A stretch of 64,000 bases of DNA from Thermoproteus uzoniensis 768-20 (GTDB lineage Archaea > Thermoproteota > Thermoprotei > Thermoproteales > Thermoproteaceae), in the NCBI RefSeq assembly GCF_000193375.1, contig NC_015315.1, positions 62,001 to 126,000 of the forward strand, read 5' to 3'. How positions within the stretch are numbered: position 1 is the stretch's first letter; each line of letters opens with the position of its first letter. Made by a program: the position numbers and the translations under genes. Below, piece after piece: positions 1,649-53,909 of this stretch. The notes beneath the pieces are model-generated. The model was not told where the DNA came from. It ran no database searches and saw nothing but the letters and a program-made list of their open reading frames with translations.

Positions 1649-4471
1649 TCATTCCAGATACACCCCGGCCCTCAACGGCAACGCGGAGCGCTTCTTCCCG
1701 CCTAGATCCGGCGCCTTCTCGTCGTCGGCTCTATACACAGCTATCTCCAAGCCGGTCTCTCTGGACAGGAAAGTCCTCAGCTCGGCCAGCGCCGAGTATT
1801 CGTCGAAGTCGTCGACCTCGGCAATCAACGCCTTGAAGTCGTCGTCGAGTTGCCTAGCCACGTCGAGGAGCCTCTTGGCTACCTCGCCGGGGACACCCGC
1901 CGATATGAGCTCTCTGACGTCCCTCGCCTTGACCGCCGCCTTGACCCAGGCGAAGTTGTTGTTGACGTATATCACGGCGCGTTTGGCCCCCTTCCTCAGC
2001 TCCTTCAGCTTCGCCACGTCCTCGACTAGGCGGTCGGCGTAGCGCACGGCCAACAAGGTCCTCCTATCCGCCGCGAGCTTCGGCCAGGGCGCCTTCGCCG
2101 CGAAGGGCCTCTCGCCCAGCCTCTCCCACAGCTCCTCGGCGAGGTGGGGGACGAAGGGCTCCATGGCCACGGCCCAAGCCTTCAACACCTCAAGGACGGC
2201 GCGGCTGGGCACTTCGACCATCTCGAGATACCTCTCCAGCGCCCTCCGCATGTCGTAGAGCACGTAGACCGCCGCCTGTCTGATGGCCACGTCGTCGAGG
2301 GCCTTCGCGGCCTTCTCCAGGAGGGACGCCGCCTCGGACCTCAGCCACATCTCTGGGAGGCCCTCGCCGTCCCTCGTCGCCCTCTCCGCCGTCGAGACGA
2401 CTAGGTTGTATATCTCCTCGAGATGCCTCGCGACAGACCTCGCCACGTTTGCCCTGAAGTCGAGGTCTTGGTCCACCTCGGCCGAGATGGCGAGGGTGGC
2501 CCTCAGAGGATCCGCGCCGAATTGGTCCACCGCCTTGCCCAAGGCCAGCACGTTCCTCTTGGATTTCGACATCTTCTCGCCCTCCACCAAGACCCATCCG
2601 TTGGCCACTATGCCTCTGGGCCACAGCTCCTTGGGGAATATGGCGGAGTGGTTGAAGAGGAAGAAGGTGAGGTGGTTGGGTATGAGGTCCTTGCCCGAGT
2701 TCCTCCAGTCCAGGGGATACCAGTAGGAGAACTCCTCTCTAATTGCCCTCAACGCCTTTTCGTCGGCGCCTACAGCCTTGGCGACCTCGGCGGCGTCGCC
2801 CTTGCCCAGAAAGACGTAGTCCCAGAAGGCCTCGGTCAACTGCTCTGGCTTGAGGCCGAACTCCCTTATCCTCCTTATGACGGTGTAGTACGCCATGTAT
2901 ATCGTGGAGTCGCTCAGGCTTTCTATTATCCATGTGGGGTCCCAAGGCAACGGCGTGCCCATCCCTCTAGTCCTCGCGCACGCCCTCTTGTCGAGCCAGT
3001 CTATGGTGGCCTCGAACTGCGCCCTGGCCTCGTCGGGCACTATCCTCATGGAGGCGAGCAACTCCTTGGTGGCCCTCTTCCAGTTGGGATCTCCGTAGTT
3101 GAGGAACCACTGGTCTTCGAGGACCTTCACCACTATCTCAGTGCCGCATCTGCAGTAGACCGGCTTGTTCATGATCTCGTACATCCTCCCGCCTATGCCC
3201 GCCGCCTCCATCCACGCCCTTATCCTATCCCTGGCCTCCCTCACGGGCTTGCCGGCTATGAAGGCGGCGAAGAAGCCTCTGAGCAGAGAGCGGGCGGGCT
3301 CGGGCAGATGGAGGCCCACCCTGTCGGCCACGTCCAGCCTCATATACCCCTTGTTGAACTCCGCCATGTAGACCTCCTTGGTGGCCTCCTCGAGCCTCGG
3401 GTCCTTCTGGTCCTTGATGCCCATCCTCTCCACCACCTCCTTCGCCGGATATTCGCCGTAGCCCTCCACAGAGATGAGCGGTATGAGCCTCACCTCGCCT
3501 AGATCCCGCAAGGCGGCGTAGTCGTAGGGCGCGTGGGCCGGGACCGACATGACGACGCCGGTGCCCGTCTTCACGTCGACGAAGGGGGCGGGGTATATCG
3601 GGACGAGCTCGCCCGTGACGGGGTTCCTGACCTTGCGGCCCACGAAGGAGGAGCCTCTAGCCCTCTCGAGGGTCTTGACGCGCGTCTGGAAGGAGAGCCT
3701 GAAGGCGGCGTCGAGGCTCAACACCATCTTCCTGCCGTCGACCTCGGCCACGGCGTAGTCCTCATCGGGGTTTATCCAGAGGTTCGTGACGCCCAGGACC
3801 GTCTCGGGCCTGAGAGTCGCCGTGGGGTATATCAGCCCGTCCTCGCCCTCGAAATAGATCAACGTCCATTCGCCTATGTCGGGCTCCTTGTCGTCCTTAG
3901 TGTCGTGGGCTCCCACCGGCATCTGGTGCTTGGGGCACCAGCCCACCGGATGTCTGCCCTTGACGAGGAGGCCCTTGTCGTACAGCTTCTTGAACTGCCA
4001 CCTGATGAATTGCTGGTACTCGGGATCTATGGTGGTGAACTCCCTGGTCCAGTCTATGGAGAGGCCCATCTTCTTCATGTACTGCTTCGAGAGCTCCTTG
4101 AAGTAGTTGGCTAGGTACAGCGGGTCCCCCATCTTCCTCAGCTCCTCCTCGGGCACGTCGTAGATGACCTTGAAGTCCTCCATGGCGCGGACGTCGCCAG
4201 CCGCTATGGACTCGGCGACGGTCAATATGGGGGTGCCGGTGTAGTGGAACCCCATAGGGAATAGGACGTTGAGGCCTTTGTGGCGGTGGTACCTCGCCAT
4301 TATGTCGGCGATGAGGTAGGTGCGGCCGTGCCCTATATGGATCGCGCCGTTGGGGTAGGGATAGGCGGCTGTTATGAAGAACTTGGGCTTCCCCGGCTCC
4401 GGCGTCGGCTCGAAGACGCGGGCCTCGGCCCAGCGCCTCTGCCACTTCTCCTCTATCTGGCGGAAGTCCAT
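1649..4471 (-). CDS. leuS: Leucyl-tRNA synthetase, archaeal type
   Basis: Charges tRNA-Leu with leucine in the cytoplasm. The 940-residue class Ia synthetase has the HIGH signature (AIHIGHGRTY, near residue 45), a CP1 editing domain inserted into the Rossmann fold, the WIIESLSDSTIYMAYYT segment typical of LeuRS, and KMSKS (GEKMSKSKRN) near residue 632, followed by the anticodon-binding helical bundle and an archaeal C-terminal extension. Full length for the archaeal/eukaryal form. The ATG at 4471 lies about 23 bases downstream of TTAATAAATA on the minus strand, which fits a leaderless mRNA. Confidence 0.98.
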   Translation of the reverse strand: MDFRQIEEKWQRRWAEARVFEPTPEPGKPKFFITAAYPYPNGAIHIGHGRTYLIADIMARYHRHKGLNVLFPMGFHYTGTPILTVAESIAAGDVRAMEDFKVIYDVPEEELRKMGDPLYLANYFKELSKQYMKKMGLSIDWTREFTTIDPEYQQFIRWQFKKLYDKGLLVKGRHPVGWCPKHQMPVGAHDTKDDKEPDIGEWTLIYFEGEDGLIYPTATLRPETVLGVTNLWINPDEDYAVAEVDGRKMVLSLDAAFRLSFQTRVKTLERARGSSFVGRKVRNPVTGELVPIYPAPFVDVKTGTGVVMSVPAHAPYDYAALRDLGEVRLIPLISVEGYGEYPAKEVVERMGIKDQKDPRLEEATKEVYMAEFNKGYMRLDVADRVGLHLPEPARSLLRGFFAAFIAGKPVREARDRIRAWMEAAGIGGRMYEIMNKPVYCRCGTEIVVKVLEDQWFLNYGDPNWKRATKELLASMRIVPDEARAQFEATIDWLDKRACARTRGMGTPLPWDPTWIIESLSDSTIYMAYYTVIRRIREFGLKPEQLTEAFWDYVFLGKGDAAEVAKAVGADEKALRAIREEFSYWYPLDWRNSGKDLIPNHLTFFLFNHSAIFPKELWPRGIVANGWVLVEGEKMSKSKRNVLALGKAVDQFGADPLRATLAISAEVDQDLDFRANVARSVARHLEEIYNLVVSTAERATRDGEGLPEMWLRSEAASLLEKAAKALDDVAIRQAAVYVLYDMRRALERYLEMVEVPSRAVLEVLKAWAVAMEPFVPHLAEELWERLGERPFAAKAPWPKLAADRRTLLAVRYADRLVEDVAKLKELRKGAKRAVIYVNNNFAWVKAAVKARDVRELISAGVPGEVAKRLLDVARQLDDDFKALIAEVDDFDEYSALAELRTFLSRETGLEIAVYRADDEKAPDLGGKKRSALPLRAGVYLE

Positions 4472-43193: not shown

Positions 43194-43391
43194 CTACAGA
43201 TCGGCCTCCGCGTACACGTCCGCCCTCAACGGGAGGTCCAAGACGAGGCGCGCCTTGTACCTCGCGCCGCCGCCCAGACCCCAGACCTCCCCCGGAGATA
43301 TGCCGATGCGCTTGGCCCCCCCCACCTCTACGGCCCGCAGCACCACGTAGAGCCCCCGGCGGCCCGCGACGTCGAGGATCTCCCTCACCAC
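43194..43391 (-). CDS. Hypothetical protein, start uncertain
   Basis: A frame of at least 65 residues from GTG 43391, containing REILDVAGRRGLYVVLRAVE and ending DVYAEADL; beta-alpha-beta in feel. Coding character continues upstream of the GTG (DLGLQKAEVVLAKASSNGV), so the real start may be an in-frame CTG at 43415, which lies 26 bases after a weak GATTTAGG box. No family recognised. Ends just before the pheA promoter. Confidence 0.55.
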   Translation of the reverse strand: MVREILDVAGRRGLYVVLRAVEVGGAKRIGISPGEVWGLGGGARYKARLVLDLPLRADVYAEADL

Positions 43392-43581
43392 GCCGTTCGA
43401 GGAGGCCTTGGCCAGGACGACCTCGGCCTTCTGGAGCCCTAAATCGGCGTGTGGCTCGACTCGCGCCGAACGCGCAGTGCGGCGGCGCTGTGTGGGAGCC
43501 GCGAGGCCGGCAGACGCTGTGGCTAGTCAGCTCGGCGCCGTGTATAGTCGACGACTAAAGCCCCGCGCTCTTCCTCAAGCC

Positions 43582-44064
43582 TTATGTTGTCCGCCGCGTT
43601 GCGGCCCTTCTGACGTATTCCACTACGTCTTCTACGTCTTTCTTGACTTGATCCAGCGACCTGTAGCGCGACAGAACCCCCTCGGGGTTGAGGCCGTTGT
43701 GCTGGAATTGGTGGAGGTCTAGGGCCTTTTCTACGGCCAGCTCCAACTCCTTGTCGCCTATGTGCTGGGCCACCTCCTTCATCCTGGTTGTGGGCATTAG
43801 GGCGATTACCAGATCTACCTCGGCCGCCCGGCGGCCCCGCCCCATCTTCCTCTCGCCGGGGTAGAGGCCGGCGAGCCTTTCCCTGTGCTGAGCCGCCGCG
43901 GCGGCCAGCAGAGCCTTCGCGGCTTGAAACGCCTTGCCGGCCGCGTTTCTATAGAGGCCGTTTTCGAGAAAGCGGAGGGCTAGCTCGGCCTCGTAAACGG
44001 CCTCCCTCAGCCTATCCTCGCGGTACTTATCGAGGTCGATCCACGGCTTCGCCGCCGACTCCAC
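43582..44064 (-). CDS. PaREP1 family protein
   Basis: Second PaREP1 copy in the window, 160 residues. It keeps [18 protein letters not shown] (about residues 38-55), DLVIALMPTTRM and LHQFQHNGLNPEG, which align with the same motifs at 1095 and 48675. GTG 44064 follows a minus-strand AATTATATAATG box by about 23 bases. Function unknown; it opens the accessory island. Confidence 0.85.
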   Translation of the reverse strand: MESAAKPWIDLDKYREDRLREAVYEAELALRFLENGLYRNAAGKAFQAAKALLAAAAAQHRERLAGLYPGERKMGRGRRAAEVDLVIALMPTTRMKEVAQHIGDKELELAVEKALDLHQFQHNGLNPEGVLSRYRSLDQVKKDVEDVVEYVRRAATRRTT

Positions 44065-44309
44065 GTCTAATCCTGTAACCCATTATATAATTAGCCGCGC
44101 TGGGCGCAAGTCCGCGCCCCGCAGACGCGGCGGTGATGTGGACTGCGTTCTGCGAAGACGCGGCCGCTGGGGCGTTGACTTCGGCTACGCCGCGTCGGCA
44201 TTTCGCGAGGGGCCGGGAAGACGTTTTGGTTGCAGAGGCGTAGCTGGCGGCTCTCCGCCTCCGGCCGCCGGGGACTGTCTATTTATATCTTATTATGTAT
44301 GTAATTATT

Positions 44310-45746
44310 ATGGCCGTAATAAAACTCTACGGGCGGGAGAGGGAGCTGGCTCTCCTGGGGCGCCTCAAGCCTCCCTTTCTCGCCGTGGTGTACGGCCGGA
44401 GGAGAATCGGCAAGACCGCATTGGTGCTGGCCTTCCTCTCGGCGAGGCCCCACCTGTACTTCTTCGTCAACCCGAAGAAGCCCCGGGGAGCGTTGCTGGA
44501 GGAGTTTGGGGAGGCGTTGAGGAGAGCCGCGGGCCTCCCCAGCTACGTCCGGTTTGCGGATTGGGAGGAGTTTTTCGACGCGTTGTTCCAGCTTAGGGGG
44601 TACGTGGTGGCTTTCGACGAGTTTCAGTGGTTTTTGGAGGCGGCGCCTGAAGTGCCCTACATACTGCAGAAGATGTGGGATACCCGGGCGGAGAAGCCCT
44701 CGGTTATCCTCACGGGGTCGGTGGCGGGCATGGTTAAGAGGCTCGTGGCCGAGGCTGGGTCTCCCCTCTACGGCAGGGCGGACTTGGTGCTGGAGCTGGG
44801 CGAGCTCGAGCCTCCGGCGGTCTTCCAGTGGCTGGCCGACATGGGCGTGGCGGGGGAGGAGGCCTTCAAGCTCTTTCTCCTGTTCGGCGGAGTGCCCTAC
44901 TACTACCGCCTGGCGCAACAGTGGGGGGTGAAGACGGCGGAGGAGGCCGCGAGGCTTCTAGTGGCGGGGGAGGGTGGGCCTTTGAGGCACGAGGTGGAGT
45001 TCGTCCTCGCCGAGTCTCTCGGGAGGGAGTACCGCACGCACTTGGCGATTCTAGACGCAGTGGCTGGAGGCGCCACCAAGCTGGAGCAGATAGCCAGCCG
45101 CGCCGGGGTGAAGGCCACGTCGCTCCCGCCCTACCTCAACGACCTAGTCAACCTCCTCGGCGTGTTGGAGCGGCGCAAGAGCAAGAGAGTCTACTACGAG
45201 GTTAGAGATAGGTTCTACGCCTACTGGCTGAGGTCCGTGTACAGACACGGCGACGTGGCCGCGGGGGAGGCCTTGGAGGAGGCTGCCGTCAGGGAGCTGG
45301 AGAGCTTCTACCCGTGGGCTTTCGAGGCCGCCGTTAGGCAGATACTGCCGAGGCTCTACCCCGTCAAGAAAGTGGCCAAGGAGGCGGTGCACCTCAGAGA
45401 GGGGGGCAGGCGAGTCCAGCTAGACGTAGACGCCCTGGGAGTAGACGAGGAGAGGAGGTTCGCGGTGGTGGCCGAGGCCAAATGGGGCGCCGCAGACCCC
45501 CGCGAAATAGTGCCGAAGCTCAAAAAGGCCGCGGAGATCCTCATCCCCCCGGGCTGGACTACGCGGCTGGCCATCTTCGCCAAGTCCTTCACCGCGGAGA
45601 CGGAGGAGGCGGACCTCATAGATCTCCCAACCCTCCTCCAAAACCTCACGCAGCCCCCTCCAGATGTACATGCTCCTCAAAAAGACGCGGCCCGCGGCGG
45701 CTCGGCGAAGCCCGGCGACGGCGCACGCCGCCAGCCACGGCGCTAG
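44310..45746 (+). CDS. Archaeal AAA ATPase with DUF234 nuclease-like C-terminus
   Basis: A protein of about 478 residues from the archaeal ATPase family (PF01637-like plus DUF234). It has KLYGRERELALL at the start, Walker A YGRRRIGKTALV near residue 30, Walker B YVVAFDEFQWFLE near residue 105, a winged helix (LEQIASRAGVKATSLPPYL), and a C-terminal VQLDVDALG...VVAEAKWG segment with the D...ExK pattern of PD-(D/E)XK folds. ATG 44310 is chosen because TTTATATC lies about 26 bases upstream; the ATG at 44295 is too close. The last 35 residues are low-complexity and may reflect a lost stop codon. Confidence 0.85.
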   Translation: MAVIKLYGRERELALLGRLKPPFLAVVYGRRRIGKTALVLAFLSARPHLYFFVNPKKPRGALLEEFGEALRRAAGLPSYVRFADWEEFFDALFQLRGYVVAFDEFQWFLEAAPEVPYILQKMWDTRAEKPSVILTGSVAGMVKRLVAEAGSPLYGRADLVLELGELEPPAVFQWLADMGVAGEEAFKLFLLFGGVPYYYRLAQQWGVKTAEEAARLLVAGEGGPLRHEVEFVLAESLGREYRTHLAILDAVAGGATKLEQIASRAGVKATSLPPYLNDLVNLLGVLERRKSKRVYYEVRDRFYAYWLRSVYRHGDVAAGEALEEAAVRELESFYPWAFEAAVRQILPRLYPVKKVAKEAVHLREGGRRVQLDVDALGVDEERRFAVVAEAKWGAADPREIVPKLKKAAEILIPPGWTTRLAIFAKSFTAETEEADLIDLPTLLQNLTQPPPDVHAPQKDAARGGSAKPGDGARRQPRR

Positions 45747-46121
45747 GGCTCTGGAGCCTAGGAGGACTGCCGGCGCCGGCCTACGTAGGCCCCAGCCGCG
45801 CCTCGTCTACCCAGCGCCTTTCTGCGAGGCCGCCGAGGCGTTGAGGGCACACCTACAGTGGAGGCTTCTTAGATGCGTTCCACGAAATTGACATGTGTTG
45901 TAAACGCGCAGTTAACGCAGACGCCTCGCCACGGCTCTGGCCGTGTCGCGCTACAAAGGAGAGAGGAACCATTTGGGACGTAGCCGCGATTCAGCTAGGG
46001 GGCTTAGCAAACGACGAGTCGGAGCCAGCGGTATTGAGGCTACGAGCCGCGGCGTAGAGACTACGCGCGCCGCGCCGTCCCTCACCTCCGCAACTTACGA
46101 GAATCAGCTGGTCTCGCCGGG
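45747..46121. other. Coding-poor stretch in accessory island
   Basis: No convincing gene on either strand over 375 bases. Short frames here (for example plus 45943-46125) have scrambled composition and no TATA at the right distance. The sequence looks like decayed coding DNA. Confidence 0.5.
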
Positions 46122-46433
46122 CTAGCTACAGCGAGCCGCGGCGCATATCTCTCGGGGGTTTAGCAACACCTCGACGCCCAGCTCAGCCCGGTAGTACTGG
46201 AGCACGTAGCGGCCGGGCATCCTCATCCGCTGGAAGCAGAAAGCCGCCTTCTTCTTGGGGCACTCCATGCGCCTCAGACACGCCTTTAGCTGGGCGGCCG
46301 CGTCCCCGTCTATGCCGAGCGCCGACTTGCACTCGACAGCCACGCAGTCGCACACGGCGTCGCATATAGGCCCGTCCTCGCCGCCCCTAACCCCGTCTAT
46401 CTCGTGGTTTTTGTCAAGCGGCACGCAACGCAT
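46122..46433 (-). CDS. Very small PD-(D/E)XK-like protein partnered with AAA15 ATPase
   Basis: A 103-residue Cys-rich protein. Its centre, NHEIDGVRGG followed by CDCVAVECKSAL, has the E...D...ExK pattern of PD-(D/E)XK nucleases, and a helix (GDAAAQLKACLRRM) and strand follow as in that fold. Eight cysteines, including DAVCDC and PKKKAAFCF, may hold a metal or cluster. ATG 46433 starts inside the ATPase gene (20-base overlap), so the two are translationally linked. Small size and partner resemble two-gene ATPase-nuclease defence modules (inference). Confidence 0.7.
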   Translation of the reverse strand: MRCVPLDKNHEIDGVRGGEDGPICDAVCDCVAVECKSALGIDGDAAAQLKACLRRMECPKKKAAFCFQRMRMPGRYVLQYYRAELGVEVLLNPREICAAARCS

Positions 46434-47403
46434 CTCTAATCCGCGCAAGGGCTTTGCTCAGCTCCTCCATCACCTTGAGCTGTAGCTCGTCCATATCCAC
46501 TTCGCCCCCCGACAGGTCCACCTCCTCCACGTAGGCGTCGCCGACTGCCCTAAGCCTGAAGCGGTACATCCTCACCTCCGGCCTTCCGCCGGCCAGCTCC
46601 ACCCCCAGCTCTCCGGGGTCTGGATGAGACGCGAGGGCCGCAACCCACGCCGCGAGCAAGTCGCTGTGGGTCGTGACCAGGAAGCCGCGGCCTCCCGACG
46701 CCTGTCCGTAGATAAACTTGGCCAGCTCGAACACGGCGTCGTCGTGGAGATGCGCCTCGGGCTCCTCCAGCACCAAATTCTGGCAACCTCCCCGCCTTCC
46801 TAAGTCCACCAGGGACTCCACCATTGAGGATACGTGTCTATAGGCATTGCCCCCCTCGTAGACCGCGTCGCCCATCAAGACTATGTCGAAAGTCTTGGTG
46901 ATCCACCGCAACGCCTCTGGGTAAATCCTCTGGCACCTACCCAGCGTCCTCCAGGAGTAGAGGTACGGCGTGTAGTCGAAATCCCCGCGGGCGGACACGC
47001 GCAACGTGTCTCGGGTCGTCTTCTCCGCCTTCTCGAACATATCTCCCTTTACAGAGAAATTCGCCACGTTGTCGATGGTAACTACGAGCGAGGCGTCGCC
47101 GTATTTTATAGAGATCACGGCCTCCCTCTCCCCCCTCCTCACCGGTATGCTGAAGACCTCCCCCTGAAATTTTTCGTTAAAGAGCTGGGCCAAGCTCTTG
47201 GGCTTTGCGTATCTGCCCAGCCTCTCCTCTGCATATAGTCTGGCGTATTCCCGCTGGGCTTCTGCAAACGCGGTGGTCACCGCCGAGATTGCGTTGGCGA
47301 GGATGCTCTTCCCCGACCTGTTTACGCCGATGAAGAGGGTTATGGGGCTGAGCTTTACGGCGGCCTCGCTAAGCGGGCCCAAGTTGCGGACGTACACCTC
47401 CAC
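46414..47403 (-). CDS. OLD/AAA15-type ABC-fold ATPase
   Basis: A 329-residue ATPase of the AAA15/AAA21 (OLD-like) group: N-terminal VYVRNLGPLSEAAVKL, Walker A GVNRSGKSILANA near residue 30, Walker B NLVLEEPEAHLHDD near residue 215, and the H-motif LVTTHSDLLAAW. It lacks the C-terminal Toprim domain of OLD nucleases; the nuclease function may be supplied by the overlapping gene at 46122. The GTG at 47403 follows a TTTAAATAG box by about 25 bases. Confidence 0.85.
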   Translation of the reverse strand: MEVYVRNLGPLSEAAVKLSPITLFIGVNRSGKSILANAISAVTTAFAEAQREYARLYAEERLGRYAKPKSLAQLFNEKFQGEVFSIPVRRGEREAVISIKYGDASLVVTIDNVANFSVKGDMFEKAEKTTRDTLRVSARGDFDYTPYLYSWRTLGRCQRIYPEALRWITKTFDIVLMGDAVYEGGNAYRHVSSMVESLVDLGRRGGCQNLVLEEPEAHLHDDAVFELAKFIYGQASGGRGFLVTTHSDLLAAWVAALASHPDPGELGVELAGGRPEVRMYRFRLRAVGDAYVEEVDLSGGEVDMDELQLKVMEELSKALARIRDALRAA

Positions 47404-47566
47404 ACGCTGAAGAGAGTCTCTATTTAAAGCTCTAGTGCCGGGCCGGAGCTACGGCGAGCTGTCCGCCGGGGCCGTGGCGGGGGACGAGACGGAGCACCCC
47501 ACGAAAAACTAGCCGAGCCTCCACGCGAGCCGTCACACGTTTATAAAGAGTTGCGGTATATAGAAC

Positions 47567-48328
47567 GTGGGGCTCACCCCCGAGGAGAAGCGGAGGTTCT
47601 TGAGGGCGTTGGAGGAGGACGAGGAGTTTAGGCTGGCGGTGGCTGGGGCCGTTGGGCTCGGGGAGGTGTTGAAAGAGCTTAGAAACCTCCGCCGGGACTC
47701 CGAGAGGAGGTGGAGGCGGTGGTACAAGACATGGCAGAAATTCCTCGAAGAAAACGAAAAACGGTGGCAGGAAAACGAGAGGAGATGGCTTGAGAATGAG
47801 AGGAGGTGGCAGGAGTGGTATGAAACATGGCGGAAATTCCTAGAAGAGAATGAAAAGAGGCGGCAAGAGAACGAGAGGCGGTGGAGAGAGAATGAGGAGA
47901 GGTGGGAGAGGGCGTTTAGGGAGTTTAAGTGGATTAGGTCGGCGATGGAGCAGTTGCAGGAGGCGCTGGGGGTATCGCTGGAGTTCTACACCGCCCAGTG
48001 GATTAGGGAGTGGCTCTCCGCCAAGGGGTACCGCTGCAGGCCCACGGTGCACGCCTCCCTCCTCATCGACGGGGTCAAGGAGGTAGACGTGTTCTGCCCG
48101 GACCCGCCCGTCGTGGCCGAGGTCAAGGCCGCCGTGCCCACCGTGAAGGCCGCCGAGGAGGCTCTGGCCCAGCTGAAGACTGCCGTTGAGGCCGCGGAGA
48201 GGTTCCTGAAGAAGAGGATATACGCCGCCGTCCTCGCCGTCGAGTCCGCGCCGGAGGAGGTGGCCGAGCACCTACGCCGCCGCGCCGAGGAGGCAGGCTA
48301 CATCCTCATCCTAGGGCGGGGCCATTGA
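47567..48328 (+). CDS. Trp-heptad coiled-coil protein with divergent nuclease-like domain
   Basis: A 253-residue relative of the gene at 17795. The N-terminal block EEDEEFRLAVAGAVGLGEVL is nearly identical and the middle is the same kind of coiled coil (ENEKRWQENERRWLENERRW). The C-terminal domain is different: EFYTAQWIREWLSAKGYRCR, then KEVDVFCPDPPVVAEVKAA, again D...ExK but only distantly related. A shared N-terminus with exchanged C-termini is a modular pattern typical of conflict systems. GTG 47567 follows GTTTATAAAG by about 24 bases. Confidence 0.8.
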   Translation: MGLTPEEKRRFLRALEEDEEFRLAVAGAVGLGEVLKELRNLRRDSERRWRRWYKTWQKFLEENEKRWQENERRWLENERRWQEWYETWRKFLEENEKRRQENERRWRENEERWERAFREFKWIRSAMEQLQEALGVSLEFYTAQWIREWLSAKGYRCRPTVHASLLIDGVKEVDVFCPDPPVVAEVKAAVPTVKAAEEALAQLKTAVEAAERFLKKRIYAAVLAVESAPEEVAEHLRRRAEEAGYILILGRGH

Positions 48329-48674
48329 CGAGCACAGTGGAGGCGCTCCCTCCGACGTCGCCAGCCCGCCGGTAGAACAGCGCCGGCTCGCCTCGGCGCG
48401 GGCCGACAGCCCTCGCCCAGCTGGATGTAGACGGGTCTGAGGCCGCAGCTGACTTTCGCAATCCTTATGTCGGCCGCCCCCAGACTCTAGCTCCCTAGCC
48501 GCGGCCGCCTCCACGTGGGCTCCACAGGCGAGGCTGAGTAGAGAAGCCTCACGGCGGCGTTGAGACGCCTGGCGGGCCGGTCGCGGCGGATGCGGGCACC
48601 CCGAGGCGGTCAGCCAGAGACCCAACCCAGGTGGCCGCCTCCCTCGCGAGAGAGGCGGCAGACGCGACGACCCC
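48329..48674. other. Coding-poor stretch in accessory island
   Basis: About 345 G+C-rich bases with no supported gene, promoter or repeat. Short overlapping frames on both strands have no family features. Possibly decayed coding sequence. Confidence 0.5.
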
Positions 48675-49196
48675 CTAGGCCTCGCCTCTAGAAACGCCGC
48701 AGACCCTCGTCAACAAGTCCCTGTCTGCGGCCAGCCTCTCCGCCAGGCGGCAGATGAGGAGAGCCGCCGTTCTGTCATCCGGCACATCGGAGAAGAAGCC
48801 CTCGGGATCCGGCCCGTTGTATTGGTAGCGGTGGAGGTCCAAGGCCAGCGCCGTGAGCTCCACCGCGTCCCCGCCCACCACGCCAGAAAGCCTCAACATC
48901 TGAGCCGTGGGCACCAGGGCGATCACCACGTCCACGTCCTCCACCTCTACCTCCTCCTCCCCAACCCTAACCCTCCTCGACCCCGGGTACAGACCCCTCA
49001 ACACATCCCTCTTCTCAGCCAGACGAGCGGCGAGGTAGGCCTTCCAGGCTTGAAAAGCCTTGCCGGCGGCGTTTCGAATAAGGCCATCCTCAAGAAACTC
49101 CAGCGCCAGCCGCGCCTCCACCTGCGCCTCCCGCAACCTAGCCTCCCGGTACCTCTCCAAATCCCTCCACGGCTTACTCAACACTGGAAACTCCAC
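48675..49196 (-). CDS. PaREP1 family protein
   Basis: Third PaREP1 copy, 173 residues. The core [19 protein letters not shown] matches the copy at 1095 closely, followed by DVVIALVPTAQML, LHRYQYNGPDPEGFF and a helical end. GTG 49196 is chosen over the longer upstream frame because a minus-strand TTTTTTAGG box lies 25 bases before it. Confidence 0.85.
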   Translation of the reverse strand: MEFPVLSKPWRDLERYREARLREAQVEARLALEFLEDGLIRNAAGKAFQAWKAYLAARLAEKRDVLRGLYPGSRRVRVGEEEVEVEDVDVVIALVPTAQMLRLSGVVGGDAVELTALALDLHRYQYNGPDPEGFFSDVPDDRTAALLICRLAERLAADRDLLTRVCGVSRGEA

Positions 49197-50129
49197 ACAC
49201 CCACCAACCCAGCGGCCTAAAAAACTTACCACCTCCACCACACGGCCGTGAAAAAACTAGAGACGGAGCGCCTAGGCGCCGCCGCCCCCGGAGGCACACC
49301 CCGCCGGCGCCGATGCGCCACACCAGCCATTGGGAAAAGCCCATACTCCCCGACCCTCGGAGGCGCGCGGCCTCCGCATCCCCACGCGAGTGCCCCGCCT
49401 GGAGAGATCCCCCAGCCAGCCGTTGAGCCGCCCTCAGCCCCTGTTCATGAGCCGCCCAGCCCCACGCAGGGGGTGCCAGCCACCACAAGCGGAGAAGAGG
49501 GAAATTTCGACTGCCGGAGTTCTCCGCCGCCGCGCACCAACGCAACGCAGTCGACCCGAGAATTGAAAACAGCACCATTCAGCATCCAGCCCCAAGCGCT
49601 GTCTAGACCTGGCGAATGGAAGGAGGGGCTGGATTCTAGAACCTAATCGCCCACGAGTCGGCACCCCCTCCCCCGCTCGGCGCCCATCGCGGCGGCCTGC
49701 AACTCCGCCACTCCGGACCACGACAGAGACAGACGGCGCTGTCCAGCCAGTCGGCGGGATCCGCAACGCGGTACGACGGCTACAGCGGCTTTGCGCCGCA
49801 CCGCCGCTTCGGCAGGCCCCTAGCCACCGCGCCCTTAAAACCCCACATCGGGCAACACGGGAGGCTCTTCGCCACGAGGAGATCTACGCTAGAGCCCCGA
49901 ACATAGACACTACAGACTACGCACAGACCACACGCCGCGGGACCCAAACCCTCCCCAACGGAGAAAGGCGCGATCCGGCGAAATCGCCAATTCGTCCTCA
50001 ACAAGATCCACACTTCCCCAGTAGATGGGACATACGTCGTGTATACGCCTGTCGTCGCTAGGTCTTTAGGCTTGTCGTCTGCGTGGCTTGGTGAGGTAGA
50101 ATTAAAATAGCTACGCATCCCCATATGTC
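49197..50129. other. Long coding-poor stretch (about 930 bases) in accessory island
   Basis: Several 90-130 codon frames exist on both strands but they overlap each other, have skewed Arg/Pro/Ser/Cys composition and no shared motifs. The end holds the TATA box (ATTAAAATAG, about 50101-50110) of the gene at 50130. Best read as decayed or repetitive noncoding DNA; no transposase motif, inverted terminal repeat or tRNA was seen. Confidence 0.5.
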
Positions 50130-50417
50130 GTGTCTTTGTGGGTTAGGAACGTGCATAGGGAGTTGGTCAGCAACGCTGTGGTGTACGAGCCGGTTGAGGT
50201 GAGGCGGGTGCGGTATTACTACGACTCGGGCGTAGAGGTCGTCTCGATTAGGTTGAGGGACGGGGAGCCTAAGTACGTCATCGAGGGGAGTGGAAATTTT
50301 GTAATTTTTGCAGATGACTTGGGTGTGTGGTCTGTTGATCTCGAGGTTAAGAAGTGGGGCGGGGAGTACGGCGAGGTGGTGAGAAGGATGAAGATGGCCG
50401 GGTTCGAGATATGGTGA
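50130..50417 (+). CDS. DUF2283-like protein, putative antitoxin
   Basis: A 95-residue protein. The segment RRVRYYYDSGVEVVSIRL followed by YVIEGSGNFVIFADDLGVW resembles DUF2283 (pattern YDxxxDxLxIxL ... GxxVxxDxxG), a family often encoded next to DUF4258 toxin-like proteins. GTG 50130 follows ATTAAAATAG by about 25 bases and is the first gene of a three-gene operon. It overlaps the next gene by 7 bases. Confidence 0.65.
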   Translation: MSLWVRNVHRELVSNAVVYEPVEVRRVRYYYDSGVEVVSIRLRDGEPKYVIEGSGNFVIFADDLGVWSVDLEVKKWGGEYGEVVRRMKMAGFEIW

Positions 50418-50797
50418 CGCCTCTGGAGGTTGAGGTGGTGGAGGAGCAGGCAGGCGAAATAGACGCCGAGGGTCTGCTCATCACGTATAGGATCGCCGGC
50501 GTGAAGATCGCAAAGGTCGGCGAGGGGTATGCGGTGAGCGTCGCCACAGAGGTGGCGGCTAGGTCTAAGGAGGGGCCGGCCCTCCCGGCCGGCGTGTGTA
50601 TGGGGGGCGGCGTCCCGTACAAGCCTCTCAAGTTTAGAGTCGTTAGACTAGCCCGTGCCGTGGTTAAGGCCGAGGGGAGGGTCTTTGACATATATGTAGA
50701 GCCGCTGGCCGTCGCGGCCGCCGAGGGCTTCGTGACGCCTCTGGGCGAGCCCTGCGTGGCCATATCCACAGCCGCTGGTTGGAACATTAGGGGGTAA
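50411..50797 (+). CDS. Unknown middle gene of DUF2283/DUF4258-like operon
   Basis: A 128-residue protein with a beta-rich composition: EVEVVEEQAGEIDAEGLLIT, then VAGV-type strands, a glycine-rich turn (CMGGGVPYKPLKF), and a C-terminal FVTPLGEPCVAIS. Two Cys. I do not recognise a family. ATG 50411 overlaps the stop of the first gene; its own TAA overlaps the next ATG (TAATG). Tight overlap on both sides implies a required third component rather than a bystander. Confidence 0.7.
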   Translation: MVTPLEVEVVEEQAGEIDAEGLLITYRIAGVKIAKVGEGYAVSVATEVAARSKEGPALPAGVCMGGGVPYKPLKFRVVRLARAVVKAEGRVFDIYVEPLAVAAAEGFVTPLGEPCVAISTAAGWNIRG

Positions 50798-51099
50798 TGG
50801 GATGCGGAGTGGAGTTTTCGAGGCATGCGTTAGAGAAGCACAGACTCGACGTGGCGAAATACGCCGGGCTGGAGCTTCTGGAGGCTGTGGCTTCGAACAT
50901 AGATGCTATCTTCCGCCGCGGAGAGCCGGACGTCGTTCCAGATAGGCTTATCGGCTTGGAGCTTGAAAGGAGGAGGACGGTGGTTAAGTACAGATGTAAG
51001 ACCCTGCGCGTCGTGGTGGCGAAGACGCAACGTTGCTACTTAATCGTGACCGTGTTCCCAGATCCGGGGAGTGCTCCCCATTTCGTTGTGGAGGGCTAA
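50797..51099 (+). CDS. DUF4258-like putative toxin
   Basis: A 100-residue protein with FSRHALEKHRLD at the N-terminus, the spaced PDRLIGLELERR, and C-terminal TLRVVVAKTQRCYLIVTVFP. This matches the shape of DUF4258 / BrnT-RelE-like small proteins (FSxHAxxRM ... LxVVV ... IVTVY). These are predicted RNases in toxin-antitoxin pairs. ATG 50797 overlaps the previous stop by one base. Confidence 0.65.
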   Translation: MGCGVEFSRHALEKHRLDVAKYAGLELLEAVASNIDAIFRRGEPDVVPDRLIGLELERRRTVVKYRCKTLRVVVAKTQRCYLIVTVFPDPGSAPHFVVEG

Positions 51100-51102
51100 A
51101 TC

Positions 51103-51246
51103 CTAGTCCAGTCTCGCGAGGCCTATTGTGGACCCCCTGATGCCGCCTCTCGTGTCGCCGGATGCGTAGCGGGTTATCCAGATCGGCGCTCTATCTCTAA
51201 GGGCTCGGCCGTACGCCTCAACTATGCGGTCTAGCTCCTCGGCCAT
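51103..51246 (-). CDS. Small protein (47 residues) at end of MNT-HEPN operon
   Basis: A frame from ATG 51246, which begins 16 bases before the HEPN stop on the same strand, giving EELDRIVEAYGRALRDRAPI then a Gly/Arg-rich end (GDTRGGIRGSTIGLARLD). No family recognised. The chain of overlaps (MNT, HEPN, then this) suggests a third member; it might instead be a remnant. Convergent with the DUF4258-like gene, 3 bases apart. Confidence 0.45.
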   Translation of the reverse strand: MAEELDRIVEAYGRALRDRAPIWITRYASGDTRGGIRGSTIGLARLD

Positions 51247-51434
51247 GCCGCGTTTAGGGCCTCCAGCGCGGCCGCCGCCCTCACCGCTATGTCGATGAGC
51301 GCTTGGGCCTGGACTTGGAGCAGATAGACCGCCGAGAGGTATTTGTAGACGTCGCCCAGATCGCCGGCGTCGATGCCGTCCAGCAACGACGTGTAGTGCA
51401 GGAGCAGCTTCAGTATGCGCTCTAACGCCGCCAT
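51231..51434 (-). CDS. Short HEPN domain protein (DUF86-like)
   Basis: A 67-residue helical protein whose core KYLSAVYLLQVQAQALIDIA matches the DUF86 branch of HEPN, which pairs with MNT antitoxins (HepT-MntA type). It is shorter than typical HepT (about 110-140 residues) and the RX4-6H catalytic pattern is not seen, so it may be minimal or inactive. ATG 51434 overlaps the end of the MNT gene by 13 bases. Confidence 0.65.
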   Translation of the reverse strand: MAALERILKLLLHYTSLLDGIDAGDLGDVYKYLSAVYLLQVQAQALIDIAVRAAAALEALNAAWPRS

Positions 51435-51832
51435 TTTCCGGTCACAGCCTCTATCTGCGTCCGCAGGAGGTCGAGCTTCTCGGAGTCGATCATGAAGTCG
51501 AAGCAGGGGTACAGAAGCCTCGCCTTGATCTCGAGGAACTCGTCCAGATCCCTGAAGTATATCGCCTTGCCTCTGCCCAACACGTCTATCACCAGAGAGC
51601 ACGGGAGCCTCTCGTAGTGGTTCAAGACGACTAGGTCCACGCCGTCCTCCCCAACCCCCAGAAACCTCGCCAGATCCTGCAGGAGGTCCAAATCCCTATC
51701 CACGTCCTCCAGCCAGACGCCGATGTCCCAATCCCCCTTCACAGCCCTACCCCACGCCCTGGAGCCGAACAGCACTGAGAAAACCACGCCGTACCTCGCC
51801 CACGGGAAGGAGCGCAGGACCTCGACGCCCAC
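51422..51832 (-). CDS. MNT-type nucleotidyltransferase
   Basis: A 136-residue nucleotidyltransferase with SVLFGSRAWGRAVKGDWDIGVW, the GS...DxD core with Trp between the acids as DWD, and the third carboxylate in DGVDLVVLN. Partner of the DUF86-like HEPN gene at 51231. GTG 51832 is chosen because a minus-strand ATTATTAAAC box lies 25 bases upstream; the longer frame (to 52015) is low-complexity. Confidence 0.82.
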   Translation of the reverse strand: MGVEVLRSFPWARYGVVFSVLFGSRAWGRAVKGDWDIGVWLEDVDRDLDLLQDLARFLGVGEDGVDLVVLNHYERLPCSLVIDVLGRGKAIYFRDLDEFLEIKARLLYPCFDFMIDSEKLDLLRTQIEAVTGKWRR

Positions 51833-52093
51833 GCCACCAACGTGGCTGAGGTTTAATAATGTGGCCGCCGTCGGAATAGGCCGGTGCGGTATATGTCCGG
51901 AAGCCCAGCGGGGATCGGGGCCGGGCATCCGCGGGCTCGGACCTGCGGGGGTCTGAGCCGAAGGCCGCGGCCGAGGGACGCGAGTCGTCGAAAACGGCAG
52001 ATCCACACGCCACACCGGCCAAGCGCCGAGCTCTCTGCATAGAGGCGGAGGACGTGGAGGGCTGTTGCTCGCGGCGACTGGCGGCGGGAGCGG

Positions 52094-52606
52094 TTAGTAT
52101 CTGTACACGAGCACTCCTTTTCCTTTTGCGTATTTCTCTACGTCGTCTCCTATCCTGACGCCGGCGAGGATAGCCACTGCCGGCTTGCCGTAAGCCCCGC
52201 GGGCGGCCTCCGCCTTCCTAGCCACTGCGTCTACATCCCTCCTCCTCGGCCTCGTCTTAACCTCCACCACGTACACCGACCTATCCGTCTCCACGAGGAG
52301 ATCGACGTCTAGGCCGTCCACGCGGGCGTTGCGGCGCCGGGCCAGCACCCTCTCTCCGCGCCCCTCTACCTCAAGCCTTAAATCCTCCCACACGTAGCGA
52401 GAGAGAGTTGCCTCGGTTAGGGAGCCCACACTATCCTCGAGCGCGGACACGCGCTTATTTAGCTGTGTGAACCCGGCCTTGGTGTAGTCTGCCAGCGCCT
52501 TTAAAGCCTCGGCGACTGCCTTCATCTCCTCGCTACGGGCCTCCGCGAGGGCCTTCTTGACGGCCCTCTCCACAACCTCCTCAAGCGTCTTGAGATCCAC
52601 GGACAC
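52094..52606 (-). CDS. PD-(D/E)XK nuclease-like protein with short coiled coil
   Basis: A 170-residue protein. Residues 1-60 form a coiled coil (VERAVKKALAEARSEEM). The rest has LTEATLSRYVWEDL and VDGLDVDLLVETDRSVYVVE followed by VKTRP, clearly homologous to the C-terminal domain of the gene at 17795, with conserved D..D and ExK residues. It ends GVLVYRY, matching GVLVYMY there. GTG 52606 follows a minus-strand GTTTTTAAG box by 25 bases. Confidence 0.82.
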   Translation of the reverse strand: MSVDLKTLEEVVERAVKKALAEARSEEMKAVAEALKALADYTKAGFTQLNKRVSALEDSVGSLTEATLSRYVWEDLRLEVEGRGERVLARRRNARVDGLDVDLLVETDRSVYVVEVKTRPRRRDVDAVARKAEAARGAYGKPAVAILAGVRIGDDVEKYAKGKGVLVYRY

Positions 52607-52859
52607 GGAAATCGACGGCGCTATTTCTTAAAAACTTTTAGAAGTGCCCGCGCCTCCGCATGGGCCCCCCGCGCGCCTCTATGCAAAAGCCGCCCGCGGC
52701 GCGGACGGGCGCGTCCCGGAGCGTGCGGCCTCGGTTTTCGGCTCCCTCGCCTGCGTACTCCGGGCCGCCGAGAGGCCGGGAAGGGGGCCGCCTCTCCTGT
52801 CAGCTCTGTGGGGCCGCGGCGCCCGCGCAACGTTTATATTTATTGCCCCCAAATTGTAT

Positions 52860-53819
52860 ATGGCCAGGGTCTGGCTGATAGCCATCGCCGTCTTGGTCGT
52901 CGCCGCCTTGCTTGCGTTGCTCTACCTCCCCGCGTCTCTCCGCCAGTCTGCGCCCAGCGCCGCGACCGCAACAACCCCGCCTTCGGCCGCCTCCACCACG
53001 TCGACAGCCGCATCTGTCCAGACCTCCGCCGGGCAGACGTCGACGGAGTCCGCGACGGGGAGCTCCGCCGGGCAGACCTCCGCTAGCCCGCCGCCGAGCG
53101 CCTCCACAACTACCCAGACGGCCTCCTCCGCGACGTCGTCGGTCGCCCAGACCTCGGCCGTGCGTACCTCGACGGGCCCGCCGGCCCGGCCGCCTCTCTT
53201 CAACGGTAGCTACTTCGAGGCGAACTACACCGTGTCCATGAACGTCACCATGGGCTCTATCTCGGTGAGGCTTTGGGGGTGGCTTCTCCAGGGGGTGGGG
53301 CCTCTGGGCAACTACAGCATCTTTAACTTGACCGCGGTATTGCCGGGACGTGGCCCGGTGTCGGTGTCGTACACGGCCGTGGCCAAGGGGAACCTCACCT
53401 ACATTGTGGCTTGTTCCGGGGGGCGTTGCGTTGGGAGGACTGCGCCTGTCAACGAGACGGAGCCGTTCTCGGGCCTGTTTAGGGGAGCCGTGCGGGCGTC
53501 GGGGAACTGCACCTACCTCAACTACACGGGGGTTGAGCTCCGCGGCGCGGGCAACGCGAGCGCCGGCTCTATTCCCGGCCTGGCCGGCCTCCTGAACGGG
53601 ACGGGGAACTACACCGAGGAGATCTGCGAGGCCTACGGCGTGCCTCTGTCAGCGTACGTCGACTTGCGGATGGGGCTGAGCCTCTACAACGAGACCGTCG
53701 CCGTCGACGTGGCGCTCAGACTCTCCGCCGTGAGGGTCGGCCCCTACAGCCCCGAGCGGTATAGGCAGTTGCTGGAGGAGGCCGAGGCGGCCGTCGCCAA
53801 GTCGAGCGGGGGGTACTGA
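52860..53819 (+). CDS. Surface protein with Ser/Thr-rich stalk
   Basis: A 319-residue protein. An N-terminal hydrophobic anchor (WLIAIAVLVVAALLALLYL, residues 5-23) is followed by about 85 residues rich in Ser, Thr, Ala and Pro with recurring TSAGQTS-type units, then a beta-rich outer domain with many N-glycosylation sequons (NGS, NYT, NVT, NYS, NLT, NCT) and cysteine pairs. The stalk is the form of an O-glycosylated spacer lifting a domain through the S-layer (inference). ATG 52860 follows CGTTTATATTTA by about 24 bases. Confidence 0.8.
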   Translation: MARVWLIAIAVLVVAALLALLYLPASLRQSAPSAATATTPPSAASTTSTAASVQTSAGQTSTESATGSSAGQTSASPPPSASTTTQTASSATSSVAQTSAVRTSTGPPARPPLFNGSYFEANYTVSMNVTMGSISVRLWGWLLQGVGPLGNYSIFNLTAVLPGRGPVSVSYTAVAKGNLTYIVACSGGRCVGRTAPVNETEPFSGLFRGAVRASGNCTYLNYTGVELRGAGNASAGSIPGLAGLLNGTGNYTEEICEAYGVPLSAYVDLRMGLSLYNETVAVDVALRLSAVRVGPYSPERYRQLLEEAEAAVAKSSGGY

Positions 53820-53909
53820 CGCGGAGCCGGCGACGCGCAGAGCCAGCCGGCGGCAGGCCTTCTGCTGGACGCGCCCGTCGCGTTTATATTTACCTTTTGG
53901 GTGTTCTGA

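Follow-up and report, generated by a model that had tools for sequence, protein, structure and literature searches.

A mobile ATPase gene paired with a small Cys-rich, putative PD-(D/E)XK gene in Thermoproteus uzoniensis: a candidate two-gene defence system

Does the principle by which an ATPase controls a separate nuclease, as in PARIS and Septu, also hold in archaea for an effector of the PD-(D/E)XK type, and what is the lower limit of size for a PD-(D/E)XK nuclease? Both questions are raised by a two-gene locus of the archaeon Thermoproteus uzoniensis 768-20, whose genome comprises 1,936,063 bases in one contig. The locus lies in a stretch of 64,000 nucleotides that was analysed as a whole and is called the window here. 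To our knowledge, little is known of non-CRISPR antiviral systems in hyperthermophilic Crenarchaeota, and a compact, mobile pair of an ATPase and a putative mini-nuclease, with relatives across the phylum, would be a small and expressible test case.

An earlier note on this DNA, made from the letters alone, had described an ATPase gene that overlaps the gene of a 103-residue Cys-rich protein by 20 bases, and the open reading frames, their strand and the overlap are as it claimed (Table 1). The open frame of the small gene reaches upstream to a TTG at 46448; all aligned relatives begin at the ATG, and this ATG, the frame and the overlap are conserved in four relatives. The overlap measures 20 nt for G007 as well as G016, and 23 nt for the other two, G009 and G006. 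The overlap implies co-transcription and coupled translation of the two genes. The TATA-like element CTTTAAATAG, which has an AT-rich counterpart resembling it in G007, is probably the (nearly) leaderless promoter of the pair.

Table 1. Positions of the pair, its setting and examples of a second type of ATPase partner (window coordinates, except for the A4 loci, which are numbered by locus)
Feature	Position	Strand	Remarks
ABC/AAA_15-type ATPase	46414..47403	-	329 aa, GTG start
ATPase motifs			Walker A GVNRSGKS, Walker B LVLEEPEAHLH, H-loop TTHSD
Cys-rich, putative mini PD-(D/E)XK protein	46122..46433	-	103 aa, ATG start; assignment from AlphaFold2 model and profile links
Overlap of ATPase gene and small gene	46414..46433	-	20 nt
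Proposed catalytic beta hairpin, C24-D25-A-V-C-D29-C30-V-A-V-E34-C35-K36	46326..46364	-	from invariant residues and model; counted from ATG 46433
TATA-like element CTTTAAATAG	47420..47429	-	16-25 nt upstream of ATPase GTG
Strain-specific island with the pair	~43200..53870	.	~10.7 kb; blastn of window against G003
Divergent neighbour, coiled-coil protein	47567..48328	+	C-terminal EVDVF...VAEVK motif, PD-(D/E)XK-like
A4 loci, examples	L048 3314-3712; L111 1453-1860; L121 1295-1663		

The ATPase shows a feature of the OLD family, an ABC ATPase with the EEPEAHLH-type Walker B. AAA_15 (1e-12) and AAA_21 match it at the N-terminal P-loop and around Walker B and the H-loop. Five relatives keep its P-loop, LEEPEAHLH and TTHSD. 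The absence of the Toprim nuclease, to which the earlier description had drawn attention, was borne out by Pfam, which detected this domain neither in the ATPase nor in the small protein. In PADLOC, NsnB (8e-15) scored better than AriA (6.9e-13); 68 profiles of this collection match the protein, and the NsnB and AriA matches are generic matches to the ATPase domain.

Among 61 relatives, close homologues of the ATPase were confined to six genomes, all of the family, so that 7 of 19 family genomes have it when the window is included. Intact pairs, overlapping and on the same strand, were found in three other Thermoproteaceae genomes, namely G007 (88% identity), G009 (62%) and G006 (54%). G016 has an intact ATPase with a frameshifted small gene in which ECK reads KCK, in G012 the small gene follows the ATPase and both are decayed, and the contig of G008 ends inside the ATPase. 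Solo copies of the close small-protein family were absent from the 81 genomes of the class, and the small gene adjoins the ATPase wherever the junction can be examined, in line with the linkage on which the earlier note had relied. Where dS is unsaturated, pairwise dN/dS stays at or below about 0.2 for either gene (for the small gene, dN 0.063 and dS 0.285 between the window and G007), and both genes are therefore real and under purifying selection. Together with the conserved start, these values rule out a chance overlapping open reading frame as the origin of the small gene. The loss of the nuclease with the ATPase kept in G016 would fit a case in which an unpartnered or deregulated nuclease is lost first.

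In the four intact copies of the small protein, all 10 Cys, the DKNH motif, D25, D29, E34, K36, S37 and Q48 are invariant, which agrees with its earlier description as Cys-rich. The proposed motif E...D...ECKS stood in part. ECKS is invariant, with ExK kept in all intact copies; the upstream E11-I-D13 (NH-EID) varies between EID, TIG and AIG, and EID was rejected as a source of catalytic acids because it is not conserved. The conserved acidic residues D25 and D29 are situated in GPxCDAxCDC. D, E and K are invariant in 10 aligned relatives, and D, E, K and Q form the invariant columns in the window family and the longer relatives described below.

The AlphaFold2 model of the small protein, built on four sequences and confident in one of five models (84 vs 42-61), contains the elements b26-28, b31-39 (with ECK), a43-55 (with Q48), b62-70, a74-85 and b88-91, an order predicted to be that of the PD-(D/E)XK core after helix A, with helix A itself missing. 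Foldseek with this model gave nothing significant (best E 0.26), and several PD-(D/E)XK enzymes were among the listed matches. The hairpin is very tight, with only nine residues from D25 to E34. According to the model, D25 is more likely than D29 to be the catalytic Asp, because a two-residue turn at 29-30 sets D25 opposite E34; MAFFT, by contrast, places D29 in the column of the relatives' Asp. Where helix A would be expected, the protein has its N-terminal Cys cluster, which is present in most relatives with a varying number of Cys and may hold a structural metal (Zn or Fe-S) or be linked by disulfides. A direct family assignment of the small protein was abandoned, since Pfam, NCBIfam, PADLOC and PHROGs gave no credible match and a sequence search of solved structures returned nothing credible.

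The assignment came from profile links. When an HMM of the window family (four proteins) was run against 2166 open reading frames from the sampled loci, the top matches outside the family were L059 and L058 (E 0.001 and 0.0085). These are proteins of 129 aa, from G006 and G008, with the sequence GGCDFIVAVYADGFMAVELKSG...QLKAC and a 29-nt overlap with an AAA ATPase of 467-471 aa. With hhalign, the window family aligned to three longer Cys-rich proteins at an E of 5e-5 and a probability of 68%, and, in the same comparison, to an unrelated partner family at 0.3%. Taken alone, these values are no more than suggestive. The longer relatives carry the textbook D-x(n)-ExK. A combined profile of the window family and the longer proteins, A6, was searched in 398 genomes of the phylum, and beyond its own members and decayed copies it found three new proteins at E<0.01, in G010 and G011, which are near-copies, and in the distant G166. 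Immediately upstream of each, and overlapping it, is an AAA_15-like ATPase that had played no part in the query. The next profile, A8, added a fourth protein overlapping an ATPase in G020, as well as proteins of G216, G298 and G070 with no such ATPase adjoining. In total, seven longer Cys-rich proteins come immediately after a larger AAA_15 ATPase and overlap with it; four of these seven proteins were found blind by the small-protein profile. Weaker A8 matches comprise Hjc, Cas4, NERD, UPF0102/Mrr-like proteins and DUF234 C-termini, all aligned on D..ExK; A8 is carried mostly by the longer proteins, so that these matches bear on the window protein only through the HMM and hhalign link.

The membership of the small protein in the PD-(D/E)XK superfamily, which had been suggested before, is well supported by these links to D..ExK proteins and, through them, to Hjc, Cas4 and NERD; the topology of the one confident model, in which helix A is missing, agrees with it in part. 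With Hjc, UPF0102/Mrr-like proteins, NERD and Cas4 it would share a D..ExK hairpin followed by a helix and a strand, and Cas4 is also Cys-rich. Unlike them, the small protein has no helix A, a shorter hairpin and a Cys-rich N-terminus with DKNH, and it is tied to an ATPase gene. Three divergent Cys-rich ExK partners (L050, L051 and L106) look alike by eye and were left out of the family because the window-family HMM gave them no score. A short ExK partner homologue in L175 of G216 (3711-3971, reverse complement; 8e-10) has no adjoining ATPase and is possibly an orphan or a remnant.

A second type of partner, A4, comprises 14 small proteins (118-136 aa) downstream of AAA_15/21 ATPases of the class, all abutting or overlapping them. 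D, E, H and C are invariant in them, and the place of ExK is taken by ExT or a similar motif. No credible Pfam match was found for A4, and its model is confident (pLDDT 89.7); its best Foldseek matches were to restriction endonucleases and related enzymes, namely Nt.BspD6I (probability 0.97), FokI, Bse634I, MUS81 and XPF, with a best E of only 0.01, and a restriction-endonuclease fold is predicted for this partner from the model. Homology between A4 and the window protein is undetectable by sequence (hhalign 0.3%), and only the order of elements is common to both. Two further OLD-like ATPases of the class (L114 and L115) have a Toprim-like partner with a 59-nt overlap, in which the motifs CEGKHD and LRDSDS were read by eye. 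This partner resembles the Toprim partner of PARIS, in an archaeon.

In this wider pattern, drawn from loci picked by their ATPases, a small partner with a predicted nuclease fold thus recurs behind OLD-like ATPases of Thermoproteota, and the window pair is a compact example of it. The pairs recovered elsewhere in the phylum support the suggestion of a new archaeal variant of an ATPase with a separate effector. The A8 and A4 pairs resemble the window pair in gene order, in overlapping or abutting genes and, for the two modelled partners, in strand-helix order; they differ from it in their longer partners and in ATPases of 385-571 aa (vs 329). In a tree of 29 ATPases the partner types are clustered (4 changes vs 10.5 in shuffles), a clustering inflated by near-copies, and since the deep branches are long and weak besides, the place of the window ATPase in this tree is unsure.

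The pair is located on a strain-specific island between the prephenate dehydratase gene and nre. In G003, a genome of the same genus, blastn placed the flanks of the island about 0.16 kb apart, with the sequence from ~43.1-43.2 to 53.9 kb missing; no tRNA was found in the window. A search of five genomes of the same genus found the pair in none of them. It is 88% identical to that of G007, which belongs to another genus, whereas the Nre protein is 55% identical to that of G007 and 81% to that of G003; with nre as the one housekeeping gene compared, the pair is closer to G007 than Nre is, which indicates transfer between genera. Furthermore, beyond the pair itself the window has no neighbouring gene in common with G009 and, with G006, just a PaREP1 gene, and because the flanking genes differ among these three loci, the two genes travel as a unit. 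The coiled-coil gene that diverges from the pair is kept beside it in G007 and G016 only and is therefore regarded as an optional third gene. The island also contains two PaREP1 genes, an ATPase_2/DUF234 gene, a Polbeta-type nucleotidyltransferase and a UPF0102-like gene. The PaREP1, DUF234-ATPase and nucleotidyltransferase neighbours are no named defence systems; the pair of G007 has a Cas6 gene and a HerA-like gene at a distance of about 5 kb. Carriage of the close family by viruses or plasmids was looked for and not found; a contig search with the ATPase query returned nothing, and one with the A1 query only the G006 contig again (a Thermoproteales MAG). The island setting fits an accessory, defence-like element, as circumstantial evidence.

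Several known systems are similar in layout. The AriA ATPase and the AriB Toprim nuclease of PARIS, proposed as OLD class 4, are separate proteins (PMC12409363; PMC12796447). PARIS resembles the pair in its ABC/AAA15 ATPase and nuclease on separate adjacent genes, which is a works-like comparison only, and differs from it in that AriB is a Toprim protein, whereas the partner here is a 103-aa putative PD-(D/E)XK protein with ExK. In OLD classes 1, 2 (Gabija GajA), 3 (retron) and 5 (Cran1), a C-terminal Toprim is part of the same protein (PMC10568477; PMC12796447). These classes have the same type of ABC ATPase as the pair, with EEPEAHLH Walker B; the window ATPase differs in having no Toprim. 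Gabija combines the Toprim-containing GajA with GajB, a UvrD-like helicase, and no helicase was recognised among the genes adjacent to the pair. Septu (PtuA-PtuB) also consists of two genes, for an ATPase and a small separate nuclease. PtuB is an HNH protein, while the small protein has neither an HNH match nor a match to a Septu profile in PADLOC. The pair is not a member of OLD, lacking Toprim, nor of PARIS, lacking AriB, nor of Gabija or Septu. The OLD class list (1-4 and the archaeal class 5, Cran1) includes no ATPase with a PD-(D/E)XK partner (PMC10568477; PMC12796447), and the ABC ATPase survey of Krishnan and colleagues (2020) may list such pairs.

The locus is explained best, with moderate confidence, as a mobile two-gene system of an ATPase sensor and a mini PD-(D/E)XK effector, PARIS/Septu-like in layout. 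An OLD-like ABC ATPase with no nuclease domain of its own would be joined by a minimal PD-(D/E)XK nuclease made from the overlapping frame. As a dimer or higher ring, the ATPase would most likely hold the small nuclease inactive or position it on nucleic acid, and a viral or plasmid trigger would shift its nucleotide state and switch on metal-dependent cleavage by D25/E34/K36, with invader DNA, host DNA or tRNA as the possible target. That the ATPase senses the invader and releases or positions the nuclease is proposed by analogy with AriA/AriB of PARIS (PMC12796447; PMC12409363). We infer complex formation, nuclease activity, trigger and target in this scheme; for an antiviral role, the mobility, the island, the patchy presence and the decay offer circumstantial indications.

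Two overlapping genes on a mobile island, with the nuclease inactivated and the ATPase intact in G016, would also suit a toxin-antitoxin or addiction pair, in which a nuclease toxin is checked by the ATPase (or the reverse) and is kept by the island with no antiviral function. We consider this unlikely, since sensor-effector systems are a closer match than type II toxin-antitoxin, both in gene order and in the ABC ATPase, and the ATPase is large with all its catalytic motifs kept; such a pair would, besides, not fully exclude a role in defence. An ABC ATPase with a nuclease is the layout of repair complexes as well, and Hjc is among the profile matches. The ATPase might therefore load a small structure-specific nuclease at breaks or junctions, in DNA repair or chromosome processing, as a Rad50/Mre11-like or Cran1-like pair. 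Cran1, an archaeal OLD ATPase-nickase and the sole archaeal OLD protein studied experimentally, acts in the cell cycle and not in defence (PMC12796447). A repair pair is nevertheless quite unlikely, because the ATPase occurs in 7 of 19 family genomes, is otherwise missing from the genus, has passed between genera and has decayed in two genomes, whereas more constancy would be expected of core repair.

If the ATPase is itself the effector, the small protein could instead be a regulator or antitoxin that binds a metal (Zn or Fe-S), its nuclease-like fold being degenerate and without catalytic activity. Ten invariant Cys in 103 residues would suit such a regulator, and the many parallel A4 partners with ExT for ExK indicate that the fold can lose its Lys and yet stay beside the ATPase. 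Against this, D, E, K and Q are the columns that never vary, whether in the window family or among the longer relatives, as would be expected of an active site, and we regard a regulator as very unlikely.

The sensor-effector reading can be widened, tentatively, to a possible large and undescribed family of two-gene immune systems in Thermoproteota, which would combine an OLD-like ABC ATPase with interchangeable mini partners of restriction-endonuclease fold (ExK, ExT, Toprim). The window protein would then be among the smallest PD-(D/E)XK nucleases, with a metal or disulfide knuckle where helix A would stand and a fold possibly completed by the ATPase; the ExT partners would possibly be non-cleaving or cleave in an unusual way.

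Some minor observations concern the neighbours of the pair. The ATPase_2/DUF234 protein that adjoins it (44295-45746, + strand) has a C-terminal D..EAKWG and matches the candidate defence profile PDC-S27 at 1e-29. The PaREP1 genes (43582-44064 and 48675-49241) flank the pair, and a PaREP1 gene of G006 (L033 15850-16377), just downstream of the small gene, is 74% identical to the second of these; as PaREP1 is a multi-copy family, this co-occurrence may be due to chance. At 51422-52606, the nucleotidyltransferase gene (Polbeta, 1.7e-5) lies beside the UPF0102-like (PD-(D/E)XK) gene of the island. The coiled-coil gene contains an internal tandem duplication of 96 nt (47702-47893) with 78% identity.
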